Notes under the pieces: model-generated
The model's database searches: none
What the model was told of the DNA's origin: nothing
Seen by the model: only the letters and a program-made list of their open reading frames with translations
DNA from: Thermoplasmata archaeon
GTDB lineage: Archaea; Thermoplasmatota; Thermoplasmata; Lutacidiplasmatales; UBA184
NCBI GenBank assembly: GCA_021791335.1
Contig: JAJYWS010000035.1
Span: 1 to 41,102, forward strand
Length of the DNA: 41,102 bases
Direction: 5' to 3'
Made by a program: the position numbers and the translations under genes
Shown here: positions 19,311 through 41,102 of the stretch, piece after piece
How positions within the stretch are numbered: position 1 is the first letter of the stretch
Layout: each line of letters begins with the position of its first letter

Positions 19311-19422
19311 GTACGGCCGCGCATCGGAGCGTCGGGGGTGGCGTCCCCCATCCGTGGCTTCCGCCGCGGTAGCCTGCCGTTCGCGCGGCCAATGACGCCT
19401 GCTTCGGAGCGGAGCAGGAACC

Positions 19423-20382
19423 TTGGTCGACATCGCAGCGCAGGAGATCAACCTCCTCCAGGCGGCGGTCGTGCTCTTCGGGGCCCCGTTGCTCGCGGGG
19501 GTGTATGCCCGGGCGCGGGCGTGGACCGAGTCCCGGCAGGGCCCTTCGGTCCTCCAGCCCTACTACGACCTCGCGAAGTACCTCCGCAAGGAGACGCTGC
19601 TTCCCGACGGCAGTTCGGCGGTCTTCGTGCTCGGCCCGTTGGTCGCGTTCGGAGCGTATCTCACCATCGCGGTCGTGGTGCCGGTCGTCACCCCCTACCC
19701 GCTGCCCTACGCCGGTCTCGTCGACCTTCTCGGGGGGGGACTCCTGTTCGGGTTGGCCGCCCTCGTCGTCGCCCTGGCGGCCCTCGATTCGGGCAGCAAC
19801 TATGCCGCGCTGGGCGCAAGCCGGGCCACGGTCTTCGGCGCGTTCGGCGAACCGGTCCTGATCATGGTCTTCGTTGCGGTCGCGGTGATCACCGGGACCA
19901 ACAATCCCTACGTGACGACGCAGCTTCTCGCCGGCTCGGCCTCGGCCTACCTGTCGCCCACCCATCTGCTCGCGACCGCCGCCTTCTTCCTGCTGCTGCT
20001 CGCGGAGACCGGAAAGCTCCCGGTCGAGAGCCCGGGCCATCTCGAGTTCGGGCTCATGGGCGAGGCCCAGGCGTACGAGCACTCCGGGCGGCTCTACGGT
20101 CTCCTCCAGTGGGACGGCTGGCTGAAGCAGTTCCTGCTCGCGACCATCTTCCTGAATGTGTTCGCGGCGCCGTGGGGACTCTCGGCGAGCCCCACCCTCG
20201 CCGCCGCGCTCGCGAACACCGGCCTCCTCGGCGCCAAACTGGCCGGCCTCGCCGGCCTGCTGGTGCTGGTCGAAGCCTCCCTCGCCAAGATCCGGCTCTT
20301 CAAGGTCCAGGATTTCCTGGTGATCGCCTTCTCCCTCGGCCTCCTCTCGGTCGTCACCTGGCTCTGGCTGGGGGTGAGCTGA
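19423..20382 (+). CDS. HyfC/NuoH-like membrane subunit of hydrogenase-4/complex I-related complex
   Basis: QPYYDLAKYLRKETLLP..., LLAETGKLPVESPGHLEFGLMGEAQAYEHSGR; TTG start. Confidence 0.88.
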   Translation: MVDIAAQEINLLQAAVVLFGAPLLAGVYARARAWTESRQGPSVLQPYYDLAKYLRKETLLPDGSSAVFVLGPLVAFGAYLTIAVVVPVVTPYPLPYAGLVDLLGGGLLFGLAALVVALAALDSGSNYAALGASRATVFGAFGEPVLIMVFVAVAVITGTNNPYVTTQLLAGSASAYLSPTHLLATAAFFLLLLAETGKLPVESPGHLEFGLMGEAQAYEHSGRLYGLLQWDGWLKQFLLATIFLNVFAAPWGLSASPTLAAALANTGLLGAKLAGLAGLLVLVEASLAKIRLFKVQDFLVIAFSLGLLSVVTWLWLGVS

Positions 20383-21033
20383 GTGGCGGTGGGGTCCGCG
20401 CAGGCCACCGTCCTCCTGGGCGTCGCGATCCTGCTCACGGCGCTCTACCTCCAGAGCGAATCGTTCGTCGGTCCTCAGATCCGGGCGATCGCCCTCCAGT
20501 CGCTCCTGCTCGGAGGGTTGCTCACCCTGCTCGCGGTCGAGCAGGGGAGCCTCGTTCTCGCGGCCCTGGCCGCGCTGACGGTGGGGATCCGGGCGCTGCT
20601 CCTCCCGTACATCCTGGCACGCCAGGCGGAGGCGTTCCGGCTCCCCGAGCGGGAGCTTCGGGCCGGGCGGCGGGTCCGGGGCCACGCCCTGGCCGCGGTG
20701 CTGCTCGCCGTCGTGGGCGGGGGGCTCTACCTTGAGGTGATCGGACCGGCCCTCGGCGGCCCGGACGGCGTGATCCCCTTCCTCCTGCTCCTGGAGGGGC
20801 TCCTCCTATTGGCGAGCCGTTCGAATGCGCTCGTCCGGGTCATCGCCTACCTGGAGGAGGAGAACGCCGTGGTCCTCCTCGGGGCCCTGATCGCCGCCGG
20901 CTTTTCGATCCTGGTGGAGAGCGTGGTCCTGCTCGACCTCATCGGCGTGGTGCTGGTCGCCGGATTCCTCTCCCGGCACCGGACCGCGGCCGGAGTGCCC
21001 GAGGAGGGCTTCGTCGAGGAGCTGACCGGATGA
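20383..21033 (+). CDS. HyfE/NuoK-like membrane subunit
   Basis: Multi-TM protein in HyfE operon position: LLGVAILLTALYLQSESFVGPQIRAIALQSLLLGG... Confidence 0.78.
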   Translation: MAVGSAQATVLLGVAILLTALYLQSESFVGPQIRAIALQSLLLGGLLTLLAVEQGSLVLAALAALTVGIRALLLPYILARQAEAFRLPERELRAGRRVRGHALAAVLLAVVGGGLYLEVIGPALGGPDGVIPFLLLLEGLLLLASRSNALVRVIAYLEEENAVVLLGALIAAGFSILVESVVLLDLIGVVLVAGFLSRHRTAAGVPEEGFVEELTG

Positions 21034-22457
21034 TCGTCCCCGGCGAACTGCTCTGGCTCGCGCTGGTCGGTCTTCCCACCGCCTCGGCGCTCGGCTGCGT
21101 CGTCCTGTCTCCCCGGCTCGCCGAGCGGATCGCCCGGGCGGCGAGCCTCGCGACGCTCGCCGTGGCGCTCCTCCTCCTGGTCGGGCCCGCCCGGGGATCG
21201 GCCGGGGGGATCCTGGGATGGGACGCGCTGAGCGACCTCTTCGCGGTCCTCGTCGCCGCCCTCTATGCCCTCTCGACCTGGGAGTCGTCCCTCTACCTGG
21301 CGTCGGTCCGGGCGTCGGCCCTCTCGCCCTCGAATTACTACGCCCTCCTGGGGGGGTTCGCGGCCGCGATGCTGGCGACCCTGTCGGTCTCGGATCTGGC
21401 CCTCATGTGGATCGGGCTCGAGGCGACGACGGTCGTGAGCGCTCTCCTGGTGATGTACGACCGGCGGCCGGCGAGCGTGGAGGCGGCCTGGCGCTACACC
21501 CTGATCGCCTCGGGGGGGCTCGCGGTCGGACTCTTTGCGCTCGCCCTCCTCTACCGGGAGACCGGGAGCCTGGATGCGTTCGCGCTCGCGGCCCACCCTC
21601 CGGCCCTGACCGCCGCCCTCGCCCTGGTGGTGGCCCTGGCCCTGATCGGCTTCGGGACCAAGGTCGGTCTCTTCCCGATGCACGCCTGGCTCCCGGACAC
21701 CCACTCGGAGGCGCCGGCCCCGGTGTCGGCCCTGCTCTCCGGGGTGCTGCTCCCGACGGCGCTCTACGTCTTCCTCCGGATCTACGACCTGCTGCCGTCC
21801 ACCGGGGCGCTCGGCCTCCATGAGCTCGTGGTCGCGGTCGGCGCCCTGACCGCGCTGGTGGCCGCGTTCCTGACCTTCGGCCAGCGCTCGTACAAGCGGC
21901 TGTTCGCCTACTCCAGCATGGAGAACATGGGCATTGCCCTGGTGGGGATCGGGCTCGGGGGGATCGCGCTCTACGGGGCCCTGCTGCTCCTGGTCGCCCA
22001 TGCGTTCGCCAAATCCTCGGCCTTCTCCTGCGCCGGAACCGCGCTCCGGACGACCGGGACTTCCCGGATCGACGCCGTGCGGGGGTTCGGACGACGGCGG
22101 CCCCGCACCGGGGTGCTCTGGATCCTCTCGGGCCTGGCCGTCACCGGAGCGCCCCCCTTCGGCAGCTTCGTTGCGGAGTTCGTCATCCTCACGGGGGCTC
22201 TCGCTCAGGGAGCGTACGCGGCCGTGGCCGCCCTCATCGTGGCGCTCGCGGTCGCCTTCGCCGGGATCAACTACCCGCTCGGTCGGATGGTCTTCTCCCG
22301 AACCGATCCTCCCGACCGTCCGGCCGACGTGCCGGAGGGTTGGCTTTCGACGGTCGTGCCGGGGATTGCCCTGGGGGTGGCCCTGGCCGTCGGATTGGGG
22401 TCGATCCCGTACCTGACCGGCGCGGTCCGGATCGCCGCCGGCGGGGGATTCCCATGA
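21030..22457 (+). CDS. HyfF/NuoN-like antiporter-type proton-translocating subunit
   Basis: LALMWIGLEATTVVSALLVMYD, GFGTKVGLFPMHAWLPDTHSEAPAPVSALLSGVLLPTALYVFLRIYD. Confidence 0.92.
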   Translation: MIVPGELLWLALVGLPTASALGCVVLSPRLAERIARAASLATLAVALLLLVGPARGSAGGILGWDALSDLFAVLVAALYALSTWESSLYLASVRASALSPSNYYALLGGFAAAMLATLSVSDLALMWIGLEATTVVSALLVMYDRRPASVEAAWRYTLIASGGLAVGLFALALLYRETGSLDAFALAAHPPALTAALALVVALALIGFGTKVGLFPMHAWLPDTHSEAPAPVSALLSGVLLPTALYVFLRIYDLLPSTGALGLHELVVAVGALTALVAAFLTFGQRSYKRLFAYSSMENMGIALVGIGLGGIALYGALLLLVAHAFAKSSAFSCAGTALRTTGTSRIDAVRGFGRRRPRTGVLWILSGLAVTGAPPFGSFVAEFVILTGALAQGAYAAVAALIVALAVAFAGINYPLGRMVFSRTDPPDRPADVPEGWLSTVVPGIALGVALAVGLGSIPYLTGAVRIAAGGGFP

Positions 22458-23764
22458 CCTCGACCCCGGGTTGGGAGCGGTGCTTCGGGGAACTCCCCCG
22501 GAGCGAGGAGCCCTGGATCGCCTACCTCACCCCGGACCGGGGGCTTGCCCTGGTCAGCGACCGGGCCCGAAGGGGAAGCGGGGTGGTCGAAGCCCCCACC
22601 GAAGCGTTCCTCGCTCGGTGCGGCCAAAGCGGGGACGCCGGCCGTCCGACCATGGAGCCGGACCGGGGTGGGGATCCCGCCGCGGGGGTCCCCCTCCGTT
22701 TTCCGTACGGCCCGGTGACCTTCGGGCTCTTCGAGGCCGGTCGGATCGATCTCGAGACTCCGGGCGAGCGGGTGGTGGCGGTCCATCCGCGCGCCGGCTA
22801 CAAGCACCGGGCGATCGACCGGACGGTCGTGGGTCGGCGGCCGCTGGAGGCGCTCCCCTGGATCGAACGTCGGGTGGGGCCGGCGTCGGTCGCCCACGCG
22901 ATGACCTTTCTCGCGGCCTCCGAGTCGGCCCTCGGGCATCCGGTCCCGGAGCAGGAGCTGTGGCTCCGGGCCCTCGGGGCCGAACTCCAGCGGATCCACG
23001 TCCACCTCGGCCACATCGGGCGGAGCGTGGAGGCCGCCGGGCAGCCGGTCGGGACCGCCCAGTTCGCGGCGCTCGCGGAGGAGGCCCGACGGGCGATGGG
23101 CCGCTGGGGAGGCCACCGGTGGCTGTTCGGCCTGCTCGATCCGGACTATCCGTTCCGCCGGCTCGAGCGCTCCGATCTCCGGAGCCTCGCCGCGGAGGTC
23201 GCGAGCCTCCGACGCCGGTTCGACCGGCTCTGGGAGCTCGCCCGGGGCACCCGGATCTACATCGACCGGCTCCAATCGACCGCGGTCCTGGACCGGGCGA
23301 TCGCGCAGGCCCTGGGCGCGGTCGGGCCGGTGGCCCGGGGGAGCGGCGTCGGCTGGGACGACCGGGTGGACGACCCGATCCCCCCCTACGACCTCCTCGA
23401 CCTCCACCCCGCCGTCGAGATTGAAGGCGATGCGCTGGCCCGGATTTCGGTCCGGGCCCGGGAGATCCAACAGAGCGCCGAGCTGGTCGAGCAGATGGTG
23501 GACCGCTGGCCGGGCCGTCTCGGGCAGGTCGACCCCCGGCCGGGGGTCGCCCCCGACCGCGGGTGGGCCCGGTCGGAGAGCCCGGAGGGCGACCTGGTCT
23601 ACGACGTGACGCTCCGCGAGGGACGGATCGCGGCCCTTTGCCTGCGGACCGCCAGCGCCGCGAACTGGCCCGCGTTCGCCGAAGCCCTGCGCGGGTCGGT
23701 CTTCACGGACTTCCACTTCGCGTGGGAGAGCTTCGGGCTCTCCTTCGCCGAGACCGATGGGTGA
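22454..23764 (+). CDS. HyfG/Ech large-subunit-like protein lacking NiFe cysteines
   Basis: YKHRAIDRTVVGRRPLEALPWIERRVGPASVAHAMTFLAASE...IHVHLGHIGR; ATG start (MTSTPGWERCF) overlapping hyfF stop; L1 and L2 CxxC motifs absent. Confidence 0.85.
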   Translation: MTSTPGWERCFGELPRSEEPWIAYLTPDRGLALVSDRARRGSGVVEAPTEAFLARCGQSGDAGRPTMEPDRGGDPAAGVPLRFPYGPVTFGLFEAGRIDLETPGERVVAVHPRAGYKHRAIDRTVVGRRPLEALPWIERRVGPASVAHAMTFLAASESALGHPVPEQELWLRALGAELQRIHVHLGHIGRSVEAAGQPVGTAQFAALAEEARRAMGRWGGHRWLFGLLDPDYPFRRLERSDLRSLAAEVASLRRRFDRLWELARGTRIYIDRLQSTAVLDRAIAQALGAVGPVARGSGVGWDDRVDDPIPPYDLLDLHPAVEIEGDALARISVRAREIQQSAELVEQMVDRWPGRLGQVDPRPGVAPDRGWARSESPEGDLVYDVTLREGRIAALCLRTASAANWPAFAEALRGSVFTDFHFAWESFGLSFAETDG

Positions 23765-24518
23765 GCCGATGGCGGGATGGATCCTCCAGGCGTGGCGGCG
23801 CGGACGGCTGACCACCCGGTTCCCCCGGTCGGCCCCGACCGAGGCGGAGCTTCCCCCGACCGCACGGCTTCCGGTCCTGAGCCCGCTGCCCGCGGAAGCC
23901 TCCCGGCTCCGGGAGGCGCTGTGCCCGACCGGGGCGATCGAGGGGACCGACATCGACGGGGGTCGGTGCGTGCGGTGCGCCCGCTGCCACATCGCCGGAG
24001 CTGCGGTGACGGGGCCGTGGGATGGATCGGGCCCCCCGCCGGACCGGGGCCCCGGCCCCGACGGTGAGGGCGTCGGGGCGCAGCTCCCGCCGCCCTGGCC
24101 CGCGCCGTTCGGTCGGTCGATCCATGTCTTCCCGATCGACGTCGGCAGCTGCCAGGCCTGCAATCTCGAGGTGCTCGCCCTGTCGAACCCCTACTACGAC
24201 GCGTCCCGGCTCGGGATCTTCTTCACCCCGACTCCCCGGCACGCCGACCTGCTGCTGGTCATGGGGGTGCCGACGGCGGCGATGGAGGAGCCGTTCCGTC
24301 GGACCCTGGAGGCGATGCCGTCGCCCAAGGCGATCGTCGCGGTCGGAGCCTGCGCCATCAGCGGGGGCCTCTTCCGCCACCTCCCCGGCCGCTGGACCGT
24401 CGATTCGGCCCCCGTTCCGGTGATCTACCTCCCCGGTTGCCCCCCGGCTCCCGTGCAGATCCTGGCCGCCCTGCGACGCGCCGTCGGAATCCCCCGGGCG
24501 GAGGGGGAGCGCCCGTGA
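23757..24518 (+). CDS. HyfI/NuoB-like small subunit fused to N-terminal half-ferredoxin (HyfH-like) domain
   Basis: CPTGAIEGTDIDGGRCVRCARC then DVGSCQACNLEV...VGACAISGGLF...YLPGCPPAPVQILAAL. Confidence 0.85.
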   Translation: MGEPMAGWILQAWRRGRLTTRFPRSAPTEAELPPTARLPVLSPLPAEASRLREALCPTGAIEGTDIDGGRCVRCARCHIAGAAVTGPWDGSGPPPDRGPGPDGEGVGAQLPPPWPAPFGRSIHVFPIDVGSCQACNLEVLALSNPYYDASRLGIFFTPTPRHADLLLVMGVPTAAMEEPFRRTLEAMPSPKAIVAVGACAISGGLFRHLPGRWTVDSAPVPVIYLPGCPPAPVQILAALRRAVGIPRAEGERP

Positions 24519-26500
24519 TCGGCGCCGGCCCGCTCTCCCTCGTCGTCGGCCTCGCCCTCCTGGCCGGCGCCGTCCTTCTGGCCCGGTTCGAACGGAGGCT
24601 CGCCTATGCGGTCCTCGGAGGCGGGGCCTTCGCCCTCGTCGGGGCCGGCCTGGCCGCGGGCCTGACCGGGACCTTCGCCTGGGGTGGATGGACCGGCCCG
24701 CTGGGGGAGACGGAATTCCTCCGGGTCGACGCACTTTCGGGATATTTCCTGATCGTGGTCGGGATCGTGGGCGTCGCCGTCGCGGGCTTTGCCTTCGCCC
24801 ACGACCCTACCCACGGCCCGGGGGTGCCGATGGGGACCGCGGCGACCCTCCTCGGGATCGGTTTGGTCCTGGCGGCGCCGACCTCCCTCCTGTTCCTCGC
24901 CGGCTGGGAGATCATGACCCTCGGGTCGTTCGTGGGGCTGCTCCAAGGGGCCTCCCCCCGGGAGCGGCTCGTTCCGGCGGCGTACGCCTTCCTGGGACTG
25001 GGGGAGGCGAGCACCCTCGCCTGGTTCGTGGCCTGGGGCGCCCTGCGGGCCGCCCGGGGCACCTGGCTCTTCGCCGGGGGGCCGGTGCCGGCCGAATGGG
25101 CCGGGATCGTCTTCGTCGCCGGAGCGGTCGCCGCGACAATCAAGATGGGGGTCCTGCCGTTCCAGATCGGGGAGTGGCTCCCCCTGGCGCGGGCCCAGGC
25201 GCCGGCCCCTGTCGCCGCCCTCGTCAGCGCCGCCGTTACGGCGGTCGGTGCCTACGGTCTGTTGCGGCTGATGACCCTCCTCGGACCCGGTCCGGCGTGG
25301 TGGGGCGGGCTGCTCCTGATCGTCGGCTGCGCCTCGGCCCTGGTGGGCGCCCTCTGGGCGAGCGTGAGCGACCATCCCCAAGGGCTCCTGGCCTACAGCA
25401 CCATCGAGAACAACGGCCTCATCCTGGTCGCCCTGGGCGCCTCCCTCATCGCCTCCGCGTACGGGCTCACCGGGCTCGCCGCCGTAGCGCTGTTCGCGGC
25501 GTTGTTCCAGGTCTTCGCACACGCTTCGGCCAAGTCGGGGCTCTTCCTCGTTGCGGGGCCCCTCGCCCGGGGTCCCCGGCCTCCCCCGTCGGACCGCGAC
25601 CGCTTCTGGGACGGTCGGGCCGCCGGGCCATCCCTCGGAATGTACCTGGCCGGAGCGAGCCTCGCGGCGGCCCCGCCGATGGCGGGGTTTGTCGCGGAGT
25701 GGATGATCCTGGAGACGCTCTTCCAATCGTACCGCATCCCCTCCTTGACCTACCAGCTCCTCGGCCTCTTCGCGGGGGCTCTCCTCGCCCTGGCGGACGG
25801 CCTCATGGTGGTGGCGATGACCAAGTTCGTCGGCTACGATGCCCTGCGGCGGACCCGGCAACGGAACGACCCGGGCGCCGCCCGCCCGAGGCCTGGGCCG
25901 ATCCTGGGGATCGCGTCGGTCTCCGTGGCGCTCGGGGTGGCCGCGCCCTGGGTCTTGACCGCGCTCGCACCGGTCGTCGGTCTGGTCGGGGGCCGGCCGG
26001 TGTCGGCGCCCGTCGTGGGCCTTCTCGGACTTCCGATCGGATGGTCGATCGTCTCGGGCGCCCCGTTCGGAGCGTTCACGCCGACGGCGATTCCGGTCGC
26101 CCTCGGCCTCGGGACGCTCGTCGCAGTCGGCTATGCGGCCCTCGGCCGGCCGACCCGGATCCGGCGCACCCCGGTTTGGATGTCCGGCAGTCGCCCCGAT
26201 CTCCCCGGGGAGATCTACGGTTCGAAGGCGTTCTCGACCGGGCTCCGCACGATGCTGAAGGAGCTCCTCCCCGCGGCGGCCGTAATCGGGTTTGACGAGG
26301 CCCGGGGACCCTCCGACACCGGGGTCCCGGAAGCCCTCGACCCCTTCGAACGCGGGTATACCGCCCTGGCGGCCGCGGTGCAGGGGCTCGGGCAGGTGAT
26401 CTCCCGGAACCTCATGGCCGGACGGCTGGACCGGTACGTCGCCTATCTGCTCATCGCGGTCCTGGCCGCCGTGGCGTACGTGGGGATCCTCTACCACTAA
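24515..26500 (+). CDS. HyfB/NuoL-like antiporter-type membrane subunit
   Basis: FLAGWEIMTLGSFVGLL, TIKMGVLPFQIGEWLPLARAQAPAPVAALVSA, YSTIENNGLILVALG; GTG start overlapping previous stop. Confidence 0.9.
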   Translation: MIGAGPLSLVVGLALLAGAVLLARFERRLAYAVLGGGAFALVGAGLAAGLTGTFAWGGWTGPLGETEFLRVDALSGYFLIVVGIVGVAVAGFAFAHDPTHGPGVPMGTAATLLGIGLVLAAPTSLLFLAGWEIMTLGSFVGLLQGASPRERLVPAAYAFLGLGEASTLAWFVAWGALRAARGTWLFAGGPVPAEWAGIVFVAGAVAATIKMGVLPFQIGEWLPLARAQAPAPVAALVSAAVTAVGAYGLLRLMTLLGPGPAWWGGLLLIVGCASALVGALWASVSDHPQGLLAYSTIENNGLILVALGASLIASAYGLTGLAAVALFAALFQVFAHASAKSGLFLVAGPLARGPRPPPSDRDRFWDGRAAGPSLGMYLAGASLAAAPPMAGFVAEWMILETLFQSYRIPSLTYQLLGLFAGALLALADGLMVVAMTKFVGYDALRRTRQRNDPGAARPRPGPILGIASVSVALGVAAPWVLTALAPVVGLVGGRPVSAPVVGLLGLPIGWSIVSGAPFGAFTPTAIPVALGLGTLVAVGYAALGRPTRIRRTPVWMSGSRPDLPGEIYGSKAFSTGLRTMLKELLPAAAVIGFDEARGPSDTGVPEALDPFERGYTALAAAVQGLGQVISRNLMAGRLDRYVAYLLIAVLAAVAYVGILYH

Positions 26501-29676: not shown

Positions 29677-29683
29677 CAAATAC
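29677..29683 (+). promoter_or_regulatory. Possible TATA-like element for tRNA-Lys (CAAATAC)
   Basis: AT-rich stretch 34-40 nt upstream of the tRNA 5' end in GC-rich context. Confidence 0.3.
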
Positions 29684-29716: not shown

Positions 29717-29859
29717 GGGCCCGTAGCTCAGCTAGGTTGGCGGTCCGGTCCACCGGGCGGCCCTAGACAGAGCAGCTGGCTTTTAACCAGTTGGTCGGGG
29801 GTTCGAACGAGGAGCCTGTCGGTGGTCCCGGCGCTTCTCCGAGTCTCCCCCCGGGCCCG
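29717..29859 (+). tRNA. tRNA-Lys (anticodon TTT, 29782... loop CTTTTAA 29780-29786) with two introns: 29738-29768 (D-loop, 20/21) and 29808-29845 (T-loop, 59/60)
   Basis: Acceptor GGGCCCG 29717-29723 / CGGGCCC 29852-29858; D-stem GCTC/GAGC; anticodon arm GCTGG CTTTTAA CCAGT; T-stem GGGGG 29797-29801 / CCCCC 29847-29851. Spliced product GGGCCCGTAGCTCAGCTAGGTAGAGCAGCTGGCTTTTAACCAGTTGGTCGGGGGTTCGAATCCCCCCGGGCCCG (74 nt). Confidence 0.9.
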
Positions 29860-29883
29860 TCCCTTCTTCGCCTCGAGGTCCCC

Positions 29884-30234
29884 ATGACTCCCCCCAAGAA
29901 CCCCCCGAAGACATCGCGATCCCGACGGAGCAAGTCGACTCCGGCGTCGGCCGCCGAGACGCGCCCCTTCGTGGCGCACCGGATGGTGCCCCCCCACGAG
30001 GTGCTCTCGGAGGAGGAGTCGGCCCAGGTGCTCGCGACGCTCGGCACGCCGGCCGATCGGATCCCGAAGATCCTCCTCACCGACCCGGGTCTCAAAACCG
30101 ATCCCAAATACCAGAAGATGCGGGATGCGGGGGAGCCGATGCTGGGCCGCGTGGTCCGCATCCGGCGCCCCTCGGCCACCGCCGGGACGGCCATCGCCTA
30201 TCGGTTGATTGTCGACTCTCTGGGAGCCGACTGA
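29884..30234 (+). CDS. rpoH: DNA-directed RNA polymerase subunit H (Rpb5-like)
   Basis: FVAHRMVPPHEVLSEEESAQVLATLGTPADRIPKILLTDPGLKTDPKYQKMRDAGEPMLGRVVRIRRPSATAGTAIAYRLI; GAGGT SD-like before ATG. Confidence 0.93.
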   Translation: MTPPKNPPKTSRSRRSKSTPASAAETRPFVAHRMVPPHEVLSEEESAQVLATLGTPADRIPKILLTDPGLKTDPKYQKMRDAGEPMLGRVVRIRRPSATAGTAIAYRLIVDSLGAD

Positions 30235-30243
30235 GGAATCTCC

Positions 30244-33200
30244 ATGCGCGAAGTAGTCGACGCCTTTTTCCGGGAGCGCTCCATCGTCAACCATCACCTG
30301 GCGAGCTTCAACGACTTTCTGCCGACGAGCGACAATCCGAATTCGAGGATGCAACGGATCGTCGACGAGTCGCGGGTGAGCGAGGACACCCTGGACCGGG
30401 GGGTCATCCGGCTGGATGTCCAGAAGACGAAGAGCACCATCATGGTCCGGGTCGGCCGCCGCCGGGACGGACGGTCCAACCAGATCGGATCGACGGCCGA
30501 ACCGACGATCCTGATCGGGCAGCCGTTCGTCAAGGAGCCGGTGGGATCCAAGCCGACGCTGACCCCGATGGAGGCGCGGCTGCGCAACCTGACCTACCAG
30601 GCGCCGATCTTCCTCAACGTCACCGTCGTGGAGAACGGCGTCGAACGGGCGCCCGAGCGGGTCCACATCGGCGACCTGCCGATCATGGTGAAGAGCCGCC
30701 CGTGCAACCTCAACCGGGCGAACCTCGAGAAGGAGTCCGGGGTCCCGATCTCCGATGAGGAGTACCGGGCCAAGCTGGTCGAGTACGGCGAGGATCCCCT
30801 CGATCCGGGCGGGTATTTCATCATCGGGGGGACGGAACGCGTCGTGATGAGTCTCGAGGATCTGGCGCCGAACCGGATCTTTGCGGAGTACAACGAACGC
30901 TACGGCACGCCCATCGAAAGCGCGAAGGTCTTCAGCCAGCGCGGAGGGTACCGCTCGCTCACCGTCGTCGAGAAGAAGAAGGACGGCATCCTCCAGGTGT
31001 CGGTCCCGACCGCGAGCGGACAGATCCCCTTTGCCGTCCTGATGAAGGCCCTGGGGATGAAGAACGACGAGGAGATCTTCCAGGCGGTCCTCGGCGAGCT
31101 GATGCCGTTGGACGAGCCGTTCGTCCACACGATGAAGCATCTCCTCAATGTCAACCTCGAGGAGTCGATCTCCAAGAAGCTCTATCCGCCGGAGGGGATC
31201 CTCACGACCGAGGACGCGCTGCTGTTCCTTGAGAAGAAGTTCGCCACCGGGCAGGCCAAGGAGTACCGTCAGCGGAAGGTCGACGGGATCCTCGACCGCT
31301 CGCTGTTGCCCCACCTCGGCGACACGCCCGAGGACCGGCTCAAGAAGGCGCTCTATCTGGCCCGCATGGCCCGCACCGTCCTGGAGCTGCACCTCAAGGT
31401 CCGGGGGGAGGACGACAAGGACCACTACGCGAACAAGCGGCTCAAGCTCGCCGGCGATCTCATGGAGGATCTCTTCCGGGTCGCCTTCTCGCTGTTGCTG
31501 AAGGACCTCAAGTACCAGCTCGAGCGGTCGTTCGCCCGGAAGAAGGATCTCCGGATCGCGAGCGCGATCCGGCCGGACCTGCTCACCCAGCGGCTGGTCC
31601 ATGCCCTGGCGACCGGCAACTGGGTCGGCGGCCGCTCGGGGGTGAGCCAGGTGCTGGACCGGACCAGCCACATGTCGGCCATCAGCCACCTTAGGCGGGT
31701 CACGAGCCCGCTCACCCGGACCCAGCCCCACTTCGAGGCCCGGGATCTTCACCCCACCCAGTGGGGACGCCTCTGCCCCAACGAGACCCCCGAAGGGCAG
31801 AACTGCGGCCTGGTCAAGAACTACGCCCTCAGCGTCGACGTCTCCGAAGGGACGGACGAGGAGGAGGTCGGCATCCTGCTGCGGGACCTCAACACCCGGG
31901 AGATCGGGCCCGAGGTCTTCGAGGAGGCCAAGGCCCCGAAGGGCCGCCGGGCCGCGCGGGTCTACCTGAACGGGAACCTGCTCGGCCTGCATTCGAACCC
32001 CGTCGAGCTGGTGCGGGAGATCCGGGAGCGCCGCCGGTCGGGCACCCTCTCCCCGACCCTCGGGGACAAGACCTACGAGGTCAACGTTCGCTACGATGAG
32101 GAGATGAACGAGGTCATCGTTCATTGCGATTCGGGCCGGCTCCGCCGCCCGCTGATCGTCGTCCAGAACGGGGCCGCCAAGATCACCCACTCCGACCGGG
32201 AGGAGATCGCCCGGGGCGCCCTCTCCTTCTCCGATCTGATCCGCCAGGGGAAGATCGAGTGGATCGATGCCGAGGAGGAAGAGGACTCCCTGATCGCGAT
32301 CGAACCGTTCGACGCGCCGGCGCGTTGCCCCCACTGCGAGCGGGCGCTGAGCCGCTCCGACCTCCTCTACCCCACCGATGCCGCGGCCTCCGACCGGGGA
32401 CTGCGCTCGTGCCGGTTCTGTCACGGCGAGATCCCGACGACCCCGCGGCTGACGCCGAAGCATACCCACCTGGAGATCGAGCCCAACCTGATCCTCGGGG
32501 TGGCGACCGGACTGATCCCCTTCCCCGAGAACAACGCCGCGGCGCGCAACACCCTCGGCGCCGCGATGGCCAAGCAGGCGCTCGGGGTCGAGTCGGTCAA
32601 CTACCGGCGGCGCCCGGACACCCGGGGGCACCTCCTCCACTATCCCCAGGCGCCGCTCCTGCGCACCGAGACGATGCGCTACGTCCACTTCACCGAGCGC
32701 CCGGCGGGCCAGAACTTCGTGGTCGCGGTCCTCTCCTACGAGGGCTACAACATGCAGGACGCCCTCGTCTTCTCGAAGGGGGCGATCGACCGGGGGCTCG
32801 GCCGTTCGTCGTTCTTCCGGACCTACCGGGGCGAGGAGCGCAAGTATCCGGGGGGCCAGGAGGATCGGTTCGAGATCCCCCGGCCGGATGTGGCCGGGGC
32901 GCGCGTCGACACCGCCTACCGCAACCTCGCCGAGGACGGTCTCATCTTCCCGGAGCTCGAGGTCAGCGAGGGGGATGTCATCATCGGCAAGACGAGCCCG
33001 CCGAGGTTCCTGGAGGAGAAGACCGACCTGCTCACGCCGCAGAAGCGGCGGGAGACCAGCGTCACCGTCCGCTTCGGGGAGTCGGGATGGGTCGACAACG
33101 TCATCCTGACGGAAGGCGAGAACATCTCGAAGCTGGTCAAGGTGAAGGTCCGCAACCAGCGGATCCCTGAGCTCGGCGACAAGTTCGCGAGCCGGCACGG

Positions 33201-33918
33201 CCAGAAGGGGGTCATCGGGCTCATCGTGCCGCCCGAGAACCTGCCGTTCACCCGGGACGGCGTCACCCCGGACCTCGTGATCAATCCCCACGCGATCCCG
33301 AGCCGGATGACGGTCGCCCACGTCCTCGAGATGCTCGGGGGCAAGGTCGGCGCCATGGAGGGTCGGCCGATCGACGGCACCGCCTTCTCCGGCGAGCGCG
33401 AGGACGCTCTCCGCCAGGGGCTCCGGGACCTGGGGTTCCACTCCTCCGGCCGGGAGACCCTCTATGACGGAATCACCGGTCGGCGGTACAACGCGGAGAT
33501 CTTCATCGGGGTGATCTACTACCAGAAGCTCCACCACATGGTCGCCGGCAAGATGCACCTGCGCTCCCGCGGTCCGGTACAGATCCTCACCCGGCAGCCC
33601 ACCGAAGGGCGCTCGCGCCAGGGCGGGCTCCGGTTCGGAGAGATGGAGCGGGACTGCCTGATCGGCCACGGCGTCGCGATGGTCATCAAGGACCGGCTCC
33701 TCGATGAATCGGACGGCACGATCCAGTACGTCTGCGGCAACCCCGAGTGCGGCCACATCGCGATCCCCGACACGCGGGCGGGCTCGCTGCGCTGCCCGAG
33801 CTGCGGGAACACGTCGTCGATCTACCCGGTGGAGATGAGCTACTCGTTCAAGCTCCTGCTGGAGGAACTGATCAGCCTCGGCGTCATCATGCGTCTCCAG
33901 TTGGAGGAGATGCACTAG
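30244..33918 (+). CDS. rpoB: DNA-directed RNA polymerase subunit B (unsplit)
   Basis: 1224 aa; [42 protein letters not shown]-like, [17 protein letters not shown]-terminal zinc motif CGNPECGH...CPSCGN. Confidence 0.97.
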
Positions 33919-40450: not shown

Positions 40451-40581
40451 TCCGACAGGGGAAGATGCGAGAAGCAATCGCGAATAGCTCAATCTAGAGC
40501 GAAGAGCAATTCCGCCAGCCAGCGAGCAAACGGTCTCGACCTTGACATGTATTCCGCACCGATTTCGATCGTGTGCACAAA

Positions 40582-41102
40582 TCCGGTTGATCCTGCCGGC
40601 GGGCACCGCTATTGGAGTTCGCTTAAGCCATGCGAGTCGAGAGGGGTAAGCCCTCGGCGCACTGCTCAGTAACACGCGGACAATCTGCCCTCAAGACGGG
40701 GATATTCCCGGGAAACTGGGGCTAATACCCGATAGACCTGAGATGATGGAAGGCTCCCAGGTCGAAATCCTCCGGGGCTTGAGGATGGGTCTGCGGCCTA
40801 TCAGGTTGTAGGGGGTGTCACGGACCCCCTAGCCGAAGACGGGTACGGGCTTTGGGAGAAGTCGCCCGGAGATGGATTCTGAGACACGAATCCAGGTCCT
40901 ACGGGACGCAGCAGGCGCGAAACCTCCACAATGTGGGAAATCACGATGGGGGAACTCCAAGTGCCTACGCTTTAAGTGTAGGCTGTTCTCGAGCCTAAAA
41001 AGCTCGAGAAGTAAGGGCCGGGTAAGACGGGTGCCAGCCGCCGCGGTAATACCCGCGGCCCGAGTGGTGCTCATTATTATTGAGCCTAAAGCGTCCGTAG
41101 CT
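40582..41102 (+). rRNA. rrs: 16S ribosomal RNA, 5' part, truncated by window end
   Basis: Starts TCCGGTTGATCCTGCCGG; contains GCCATGCGAGTCGAGAGGGG, ACTGCTCAGTAACACGCGGA, CGCAGCAGGCGCGAAACCT, GTGCCAGCCGCCGCGGTAATACC. Confidence 0.97.

Follow-up and report, generated by a model that had tools for sequence, protein, structure and literature searches.

Archaeal tRNA introns at positions 20/21 and 59/60 are known and are abundant in Crenarchaeota and Nanoarchaeota, and the tRNAs of Euryarchaeota are said to carry an intron at the canonical position only (PMC4090602). According to the tRNAscan-SE 2.0 report, extra noncanonical introns occur mostly in Crenarchaeota and Thaumarchaeota (PMC8450103), and in reviews such introns are associated with Crenarchaeota, Thaumarchaeota, Nanoarchaeota, and ARMAN and with special-loop endonucleases (PMC4090602, PMC4033280, PMC6379350). 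The α′2 endonucleases are classed as narrow (PMC6379350, PMC4033280); the α′2 EndA of A. fulgidus excises a bulge-helix-loop (BHL) intron from a full-length pre-tRNA (PMC6379350), and homodimeric endonucleases are reported to cleave BHL (PMC8707768). A table of multiple-intron tRNAs lists ARMAN-1/2, Korarchaeum, Methanopyrus, and Methanothermobacter and does not include Thermoplasmata (PMC4033280).

Here, we describe a tRNA-Lys(UUU) gene with introns at 20/21 and 59/60 on a 41,102-nt stretch of DNA from a Thermoplasmata archaeon (contig JAJYWS010000035.1, analyzed in full and termed the window herein). It resembles the 20/21 and 59/60 introns of Thermoproteales and Thaumarchaeota in position (PMC4090602), in splice motif, and in the presence of several introns per tRNA and in many tRNAs, but the host here is a member of the Thermoplasmatota with an enzyme predicted to be homodimeric and free of the Crenarchaea-specific loop (CSL), the introns are dissimilar to each other, and the tRNA-Lys pair is fixed at one syntenic locus across orders. 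The enzyme family and the strict bulge-helix-bulge (BHB) motif are shared with the canonical 37/38 introns of Euryarchaeota, whereas the position is not. The multiple-intron tRNAs of ARMAN-1/2, Korarchaeum, Methanopyrus, and Methanothermobacter likewise combine several introns in a single tRNA beyond the Crenarchaeota; however, the ARMAN enzyme is of the ε2 type with its own loop (PMC12397907), in contrast to the predicted homodimeric-type EndA found here. A search of the open-licence PMC literature (GtRNAdb being outside its scope) returned no paper on noncanonical tRNA introns in Thermoplasmata, and the Lutacidiplasmatales genome paper is silent on introns. Judging by the literature covered, the locus represents a known type of element, archaeal BHB introns at known positions, in an unreported host group. 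The initial annotation proposed rarity, but among members of the class Thermoplasmata the intron pair is not rare.

Anatomy and detection of the tRNA-Lys(UUU) gene

The gene (Table 1) reads GGGCCCG TA GCTC AGCTAGGT (31 nt) A GAGC A GCTGG CTTTTAA CCAGT TGGTC GGGGG TTCGAA (38 nt) T CCCCC CGGGCCC G. Removal of both introns restores a full tRNA, with 7 of 7 acceptor stem and 5 of 5 T-stem positions paired, and the joined 74-mer is called by ARAGORN as tRNA-Lys(ttt) from position 1 to 74. The coordinates, lengths, and sequences first given for the gene and both introns proved to be exact, as did the description of a complete spliced cloverleaf. The junctions of both introns allow no sliding. The anticodon loop, CTTTTAA, is uninterrupted, with no intron at 37/38, and a split or permuted tRNA was rejected, the three exons being contiguous and in order inside 143 nt. 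The distance from the start of the TATA-like element to the downstream tRNA is 39 nt in all 18 genus orthologues.

Table 1. Features of the tRNA-Lys(UUU) locus in the window
Feature	Position	Strand	Description
tRNA-Lys(UUU) gene, two introns	29717..29859	+	143 nt; mature tRNA 74 nt including discriminator G; CCA not encoded
Exon 1	29717..29737	+	Acceptor 5′ strand, D-stem 5′ strand, D-loop up to position 20
Intron 1	29738..29768	+	31 nt; D-loop, 20/21; bulge-helix-loop, based on covariation, slide control, and constrained fold
Exon 2	29769..29807	+	Position 21, D-stem 3′ strand, anticodon arm (CTTTTAA), variable region, T-stem 5′ strand, TTCGAA
Intron 2	29808..29845	+	38 nt; T-loop, 59/60; strict hBHBh′
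Exon 3	29846..29859	+	T60, T-stem 3′ strand, acceptor 3′ strand, discriminator G
TATA-like element	29678..29682	+	AAATA here; TGAAATAC in most orthologues
rpoH	29884..30234	+	Rpb5-like RNA polymerase subunit (PF01191, E = 1.3e-15); conserved downstream neighbour
rpoB	30244..33918	+	Used for synteny and species tree

The initial annotation had warned that default finders could miss the gene, and both programs used here do: the unspliced gene receives no ARAGORN call, and the Rfam tRNA model yields nothing reaching an E value of 1 in the whole window. Because default tRNA finders lose such genes, tRNA sets of Thermoplasmatota may look incomplete. An automatic splice search placed wrong two-intron combinations ahead of the correct pair, owing to the departure of the D-loop site from a strict BHB and to the lack of a score in the ARAGORN output. 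Since this ranking is misleading, the D-loop intron was judged by cross-species comparison.

Splice motifs and splicing enzymes

The T-loop intron forms the best-scoring BHB among all candidates in the 143 nt, and this structure is already present in the unconstrained minimum-free-energy (MFE) fold. It has the strict motif of archaeal BHB-type pre-tRNA introns (4-bp central helix, 3-nt bulges, cut between bulge nucleotides 2 and 3), with the outer helix GGGGG:CCCCC, the central helix TTCG:CGAG, an inner helix of 7 bp, and predicted cuts at AA↓C and TC↓T within the bulges. Pairing of the central helix is complete in 38 of 43 distinct introns; covariation cannot be read from it because the exon side, TTCG, never varies.

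The D-loop intron has the helix and the 5′ bulge of this intron type, with the central helix CTAG:CTAG and predicted cuts at GT↓T (5′ bulge) and AC↓A, and its 3′ side is an internal loop, in which AC↓A lies opposite AG and is followed by the D-stem, giving a BHL rather than a strict BHB. All four base pairs of the central helix are formed in 31 of 42 distinct introns, and changes are found on both strands (CTAG:CTAG, GTAG:CTAC, CCCG:CGGG, CCAG:CTGG, and ATAG:CTAT). The mean number of pairs is 3.74, compared with 2.99 after shuffling (observed value reached by 0 of 2,000 shuffles), and at most 1.69 pairs remain when the partner strand is shifted by 1 to 3 nt. Judged by this covariation, the 4-bp helix is maintained through compensatory changes. 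The D-stem is missing from the unconstrained fold, and forcing the D-stem together with the central helix costs 0.4 kcal/mol relative to the MFE.

The genome encodes both an EndA-family endonuclease (PF01974/PF02778) and the ligase RtcB (PF01139). EndA is the product of a single gene (354 amino acids, two tandem units) with two PF02778 and two PF01974 stretches, and no separate α or β endonuclease gene is present in the genome. Residues 78 to 336 match A. fulgidus EndA (E = 2e-23), the arrangement is closest to those of A. fulgidus and T. acidophilum EndA, and the Tyr/His/Lys catalytic motifs read FRAY, HARYL, and RKE. The CSL, which contains Lys44 in A. pernix, is absent, the alignment being ∼9 residues short of the A. 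pernix loop. From its layout of tandem units in one protein, EndA is predicted to be of the homodimeric (α′2) type. All relatives that are at least 90% complete have an EndA gene, nearly always with two domains in one frame.

Distribution in Thermoplasmata and in other tRNAs

The host RpoB groups with the “AcS/SubAcS” acid-soil genomes, in agreement with the assignment of the two noncanonical introns to a Thermoplasmatota genome; these genomes represent the Terrestrial Miscellaneous Euryarchaeota Group, “Ca. Lutacidiplasmatales” (PMC9287336). The tRNA precedes rpoB by ∼350 to 720 nt in 42 of the 48 named genomes tested, whether introns are present or absent and including the intron-free Ferroplasma, so that intron-bearing and intron-free forms could be compared at one locus. 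The order tRNA-Lys(UUU)-rpoH-rpoB is kept across the class Thermoplasmata (29717 to 33918 in the window, named loci L054 to L132).

Among 41 genomes searched, most members of the genus carry both introns in the same architecture, and one or both are found in other families; a search for orthologues in relatives had been suggested at the outset. Together with the covariation, the genus orthologues rule out a chance repeat or an assembly error. Both introns occur in Lutacidiplasmatales-type genomes, Methanomassiliicoccus sp. UBA345, other Methanomassiliicoccales, “Ca. Sysuiplasma,” Haladaptatiplasma, GSL3510, and others; neither occurs in Ferroplasma, Acidiplasma, other Thermoplasmatales-like genomes, DHVE2, or Methanomethylophilaceae; and several named genomes have a single intron only. 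The tRNA-Lys(UUU) genes of EA_19 (L195, VBMI01000095) and G040 (L032, G040:C7) contain three introns (20/21, 37/38, and 59/60), to our knowledge the most for any archaeal tRNA. In ETNP2_MAG_1 (L218, 0-based 908-1054), the 5′ half of tRNA-Lys(UUU) seemed to be missing, but a split gene was rejected, as the half lies upstream of one D-loop intron of ∼147 nt, above the quoted maximum intron length of 129 nt (PMC4090602).

We searched the rest of the genome (93% complete, 63 contigs) for tRNA genes using Rfam and R1, a model built for this purpose, and recovered about 36. Thirteen of them contain a 59/60 intron: Lys(TTT), Asn, Arg(TCT), Arg(TCG), Ala(GGC), Gly(TCC), Glu(CTC), Ser(GCT), Ser(GGA), Ser(CGA), Gln(CTG), Asp, and His. 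After intron removal, all 13 have a 7-nt T-loop and 7 of 7 acceptor pairs; where TTCA replaces TTCG, the central helix usually has 3 bp and a mismatch. The Asn, Asp, and His genes with this intron are the only ones found for these amino acids. Canonical 37/38 introns are also present, in Tyr, Leu-TAA, and a Met-like tRNA. As judged from tRNA-score distributions, which are a proxy and give no count, 59/60 introns seem to be common in G017, a member of the same genus, and few in Methanomassiliicoccus UBA345, Ferroplasma, and CP070732. In the genome studied here, apparent D-loop introns with approximate junctions were also observed in a Met-type (CAT) tRNA (L136, G000:C55:21323-21986, minus strand) and an Arg(GCG) tRNA (L134, G000:C15:1-400, minus strand).

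Function and history of the introns

We consider it very probable that this is a functional, single-copy tRNA-Lys(UUU) gene with both introns excised by EndA and the exons joined by RtcB, and all sequence tests at hand agree that the gene is genuine and functional. The precursor would fold into a BHL in the D-arm and a canonical BHB in the T-arm, and an α′2-type endonuclease would cut each 3-nt bulge after its second nucleotide, so that the 31-nt and 38-nt introns are released; RtcB would then join the three exons to a normal tRNA-Lys that reads AAA, a codon that does occur in the genome (for example, 3 times in rpoA). We infer transcription, cleavage, ligation, and the order of splicing from sequence. 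An uninterrupted second tRNA-Lys(UUU), which the initial annotation had suggested looking for, was not found in the 93%-complete, 63-contig genome, leaving a small chance of a copy in the missing part, and an intact tRNA-Lys(CUU) is present. The latter, or an unseen copy, could serve the cell if the gene were a pseudogene broken by two random insertions, and AAA codons are rare (none among the 53 Lys codons of rpoB). However, all exon positions are intact, the splice helices covary between species, both introns occupy the same sites across orders with constant promoter spacing, and 12 further tRNAs carry a 59/60 intron, including the only Asn, Asp, and His genes; covariation and conservation refute this reading, to which we give almost no credence. 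It is also very unlikely that EndA splices only the T-loop intron and that the D-loop insertion is left to another nuclease or at any rate is not cut by EndA. Such a division of labour would accord with the relaxed 3′ side of the D-loop motif, where AG faces the ACA bulge, and with the lack of the CSL insertion in the alignment with A. pernix EndA, but helix, 3-nt bulges, and cut register are all retained in the 42 D-loop introns, and homodimers are reported to cleave BHL (PMC8707768). The pattern observed, with the motif largely conserved and the position free, agrees with these reports of BHL cleavage.

The introns could further be recent mobile elements copied into the genome, as proposed for Thermoproteales, and not old residents. 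The 13 tRNAs with a 59/60 intron here, versus seemingly few in UBA345 and other class members by the tRNA-score proxy, suggest that the set grew in this lineage. Thermoproteales transposed introns, however, are near identical in different tRNAs, whereas the 13 introns here are no more alike than expected by chance (of 78 pairs, 3 reach ≤1% of shuffles), which speaks against transposition within the genome. In addition, the tRNA-Lys pair follows the RpoB tree (45 rows; unrooted, so that gain and loss are not distinguished), with 4 changes for the D-loop and 5 for the T-loop intron against shuffled minima of 9 and 8, indicating that these two introns are old. A recent mobile origin is therefore improbable, though less so than the two alternatives above. 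We see an even chance that the tRNA-Lys introns date from an early Thermoplasmata ancestor, were kept at the locus, later spread within Lutacidiplasmatales to the T-loops of a dozen further tRNAs, and are removed by a CSL-free homodimeric endonuclease. If true, this history would break the rule that ties intron diversity to a loop-bearing (αβ)2 or ε2 enzyme. A class with predicted homodimeric enzymes, position-free introns, and intron-free orthologues at the same locus would serve as a natural experiment for studying how introns are gained and lost and what limits the enzyme, which may be the motif and not the position.

Elsewhere in the window, an archaeal 16S rRNA gene start is found at 40580-41102, cut by the contig end. 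A gene run at 19423-26500, with subunits at 19423, 23757, and 24437, resembles an operon for a membrane-bound [NiFe]-hydrogenase or a complex-I-like enzyme, and upstream of a membrane-bound hydrogenase or complex-I-like subunit gene lies a subthreshold fluoride riboswitch match (19325-19408; 18.8 bits versus a cutoff of 34), which is probably due to chance.
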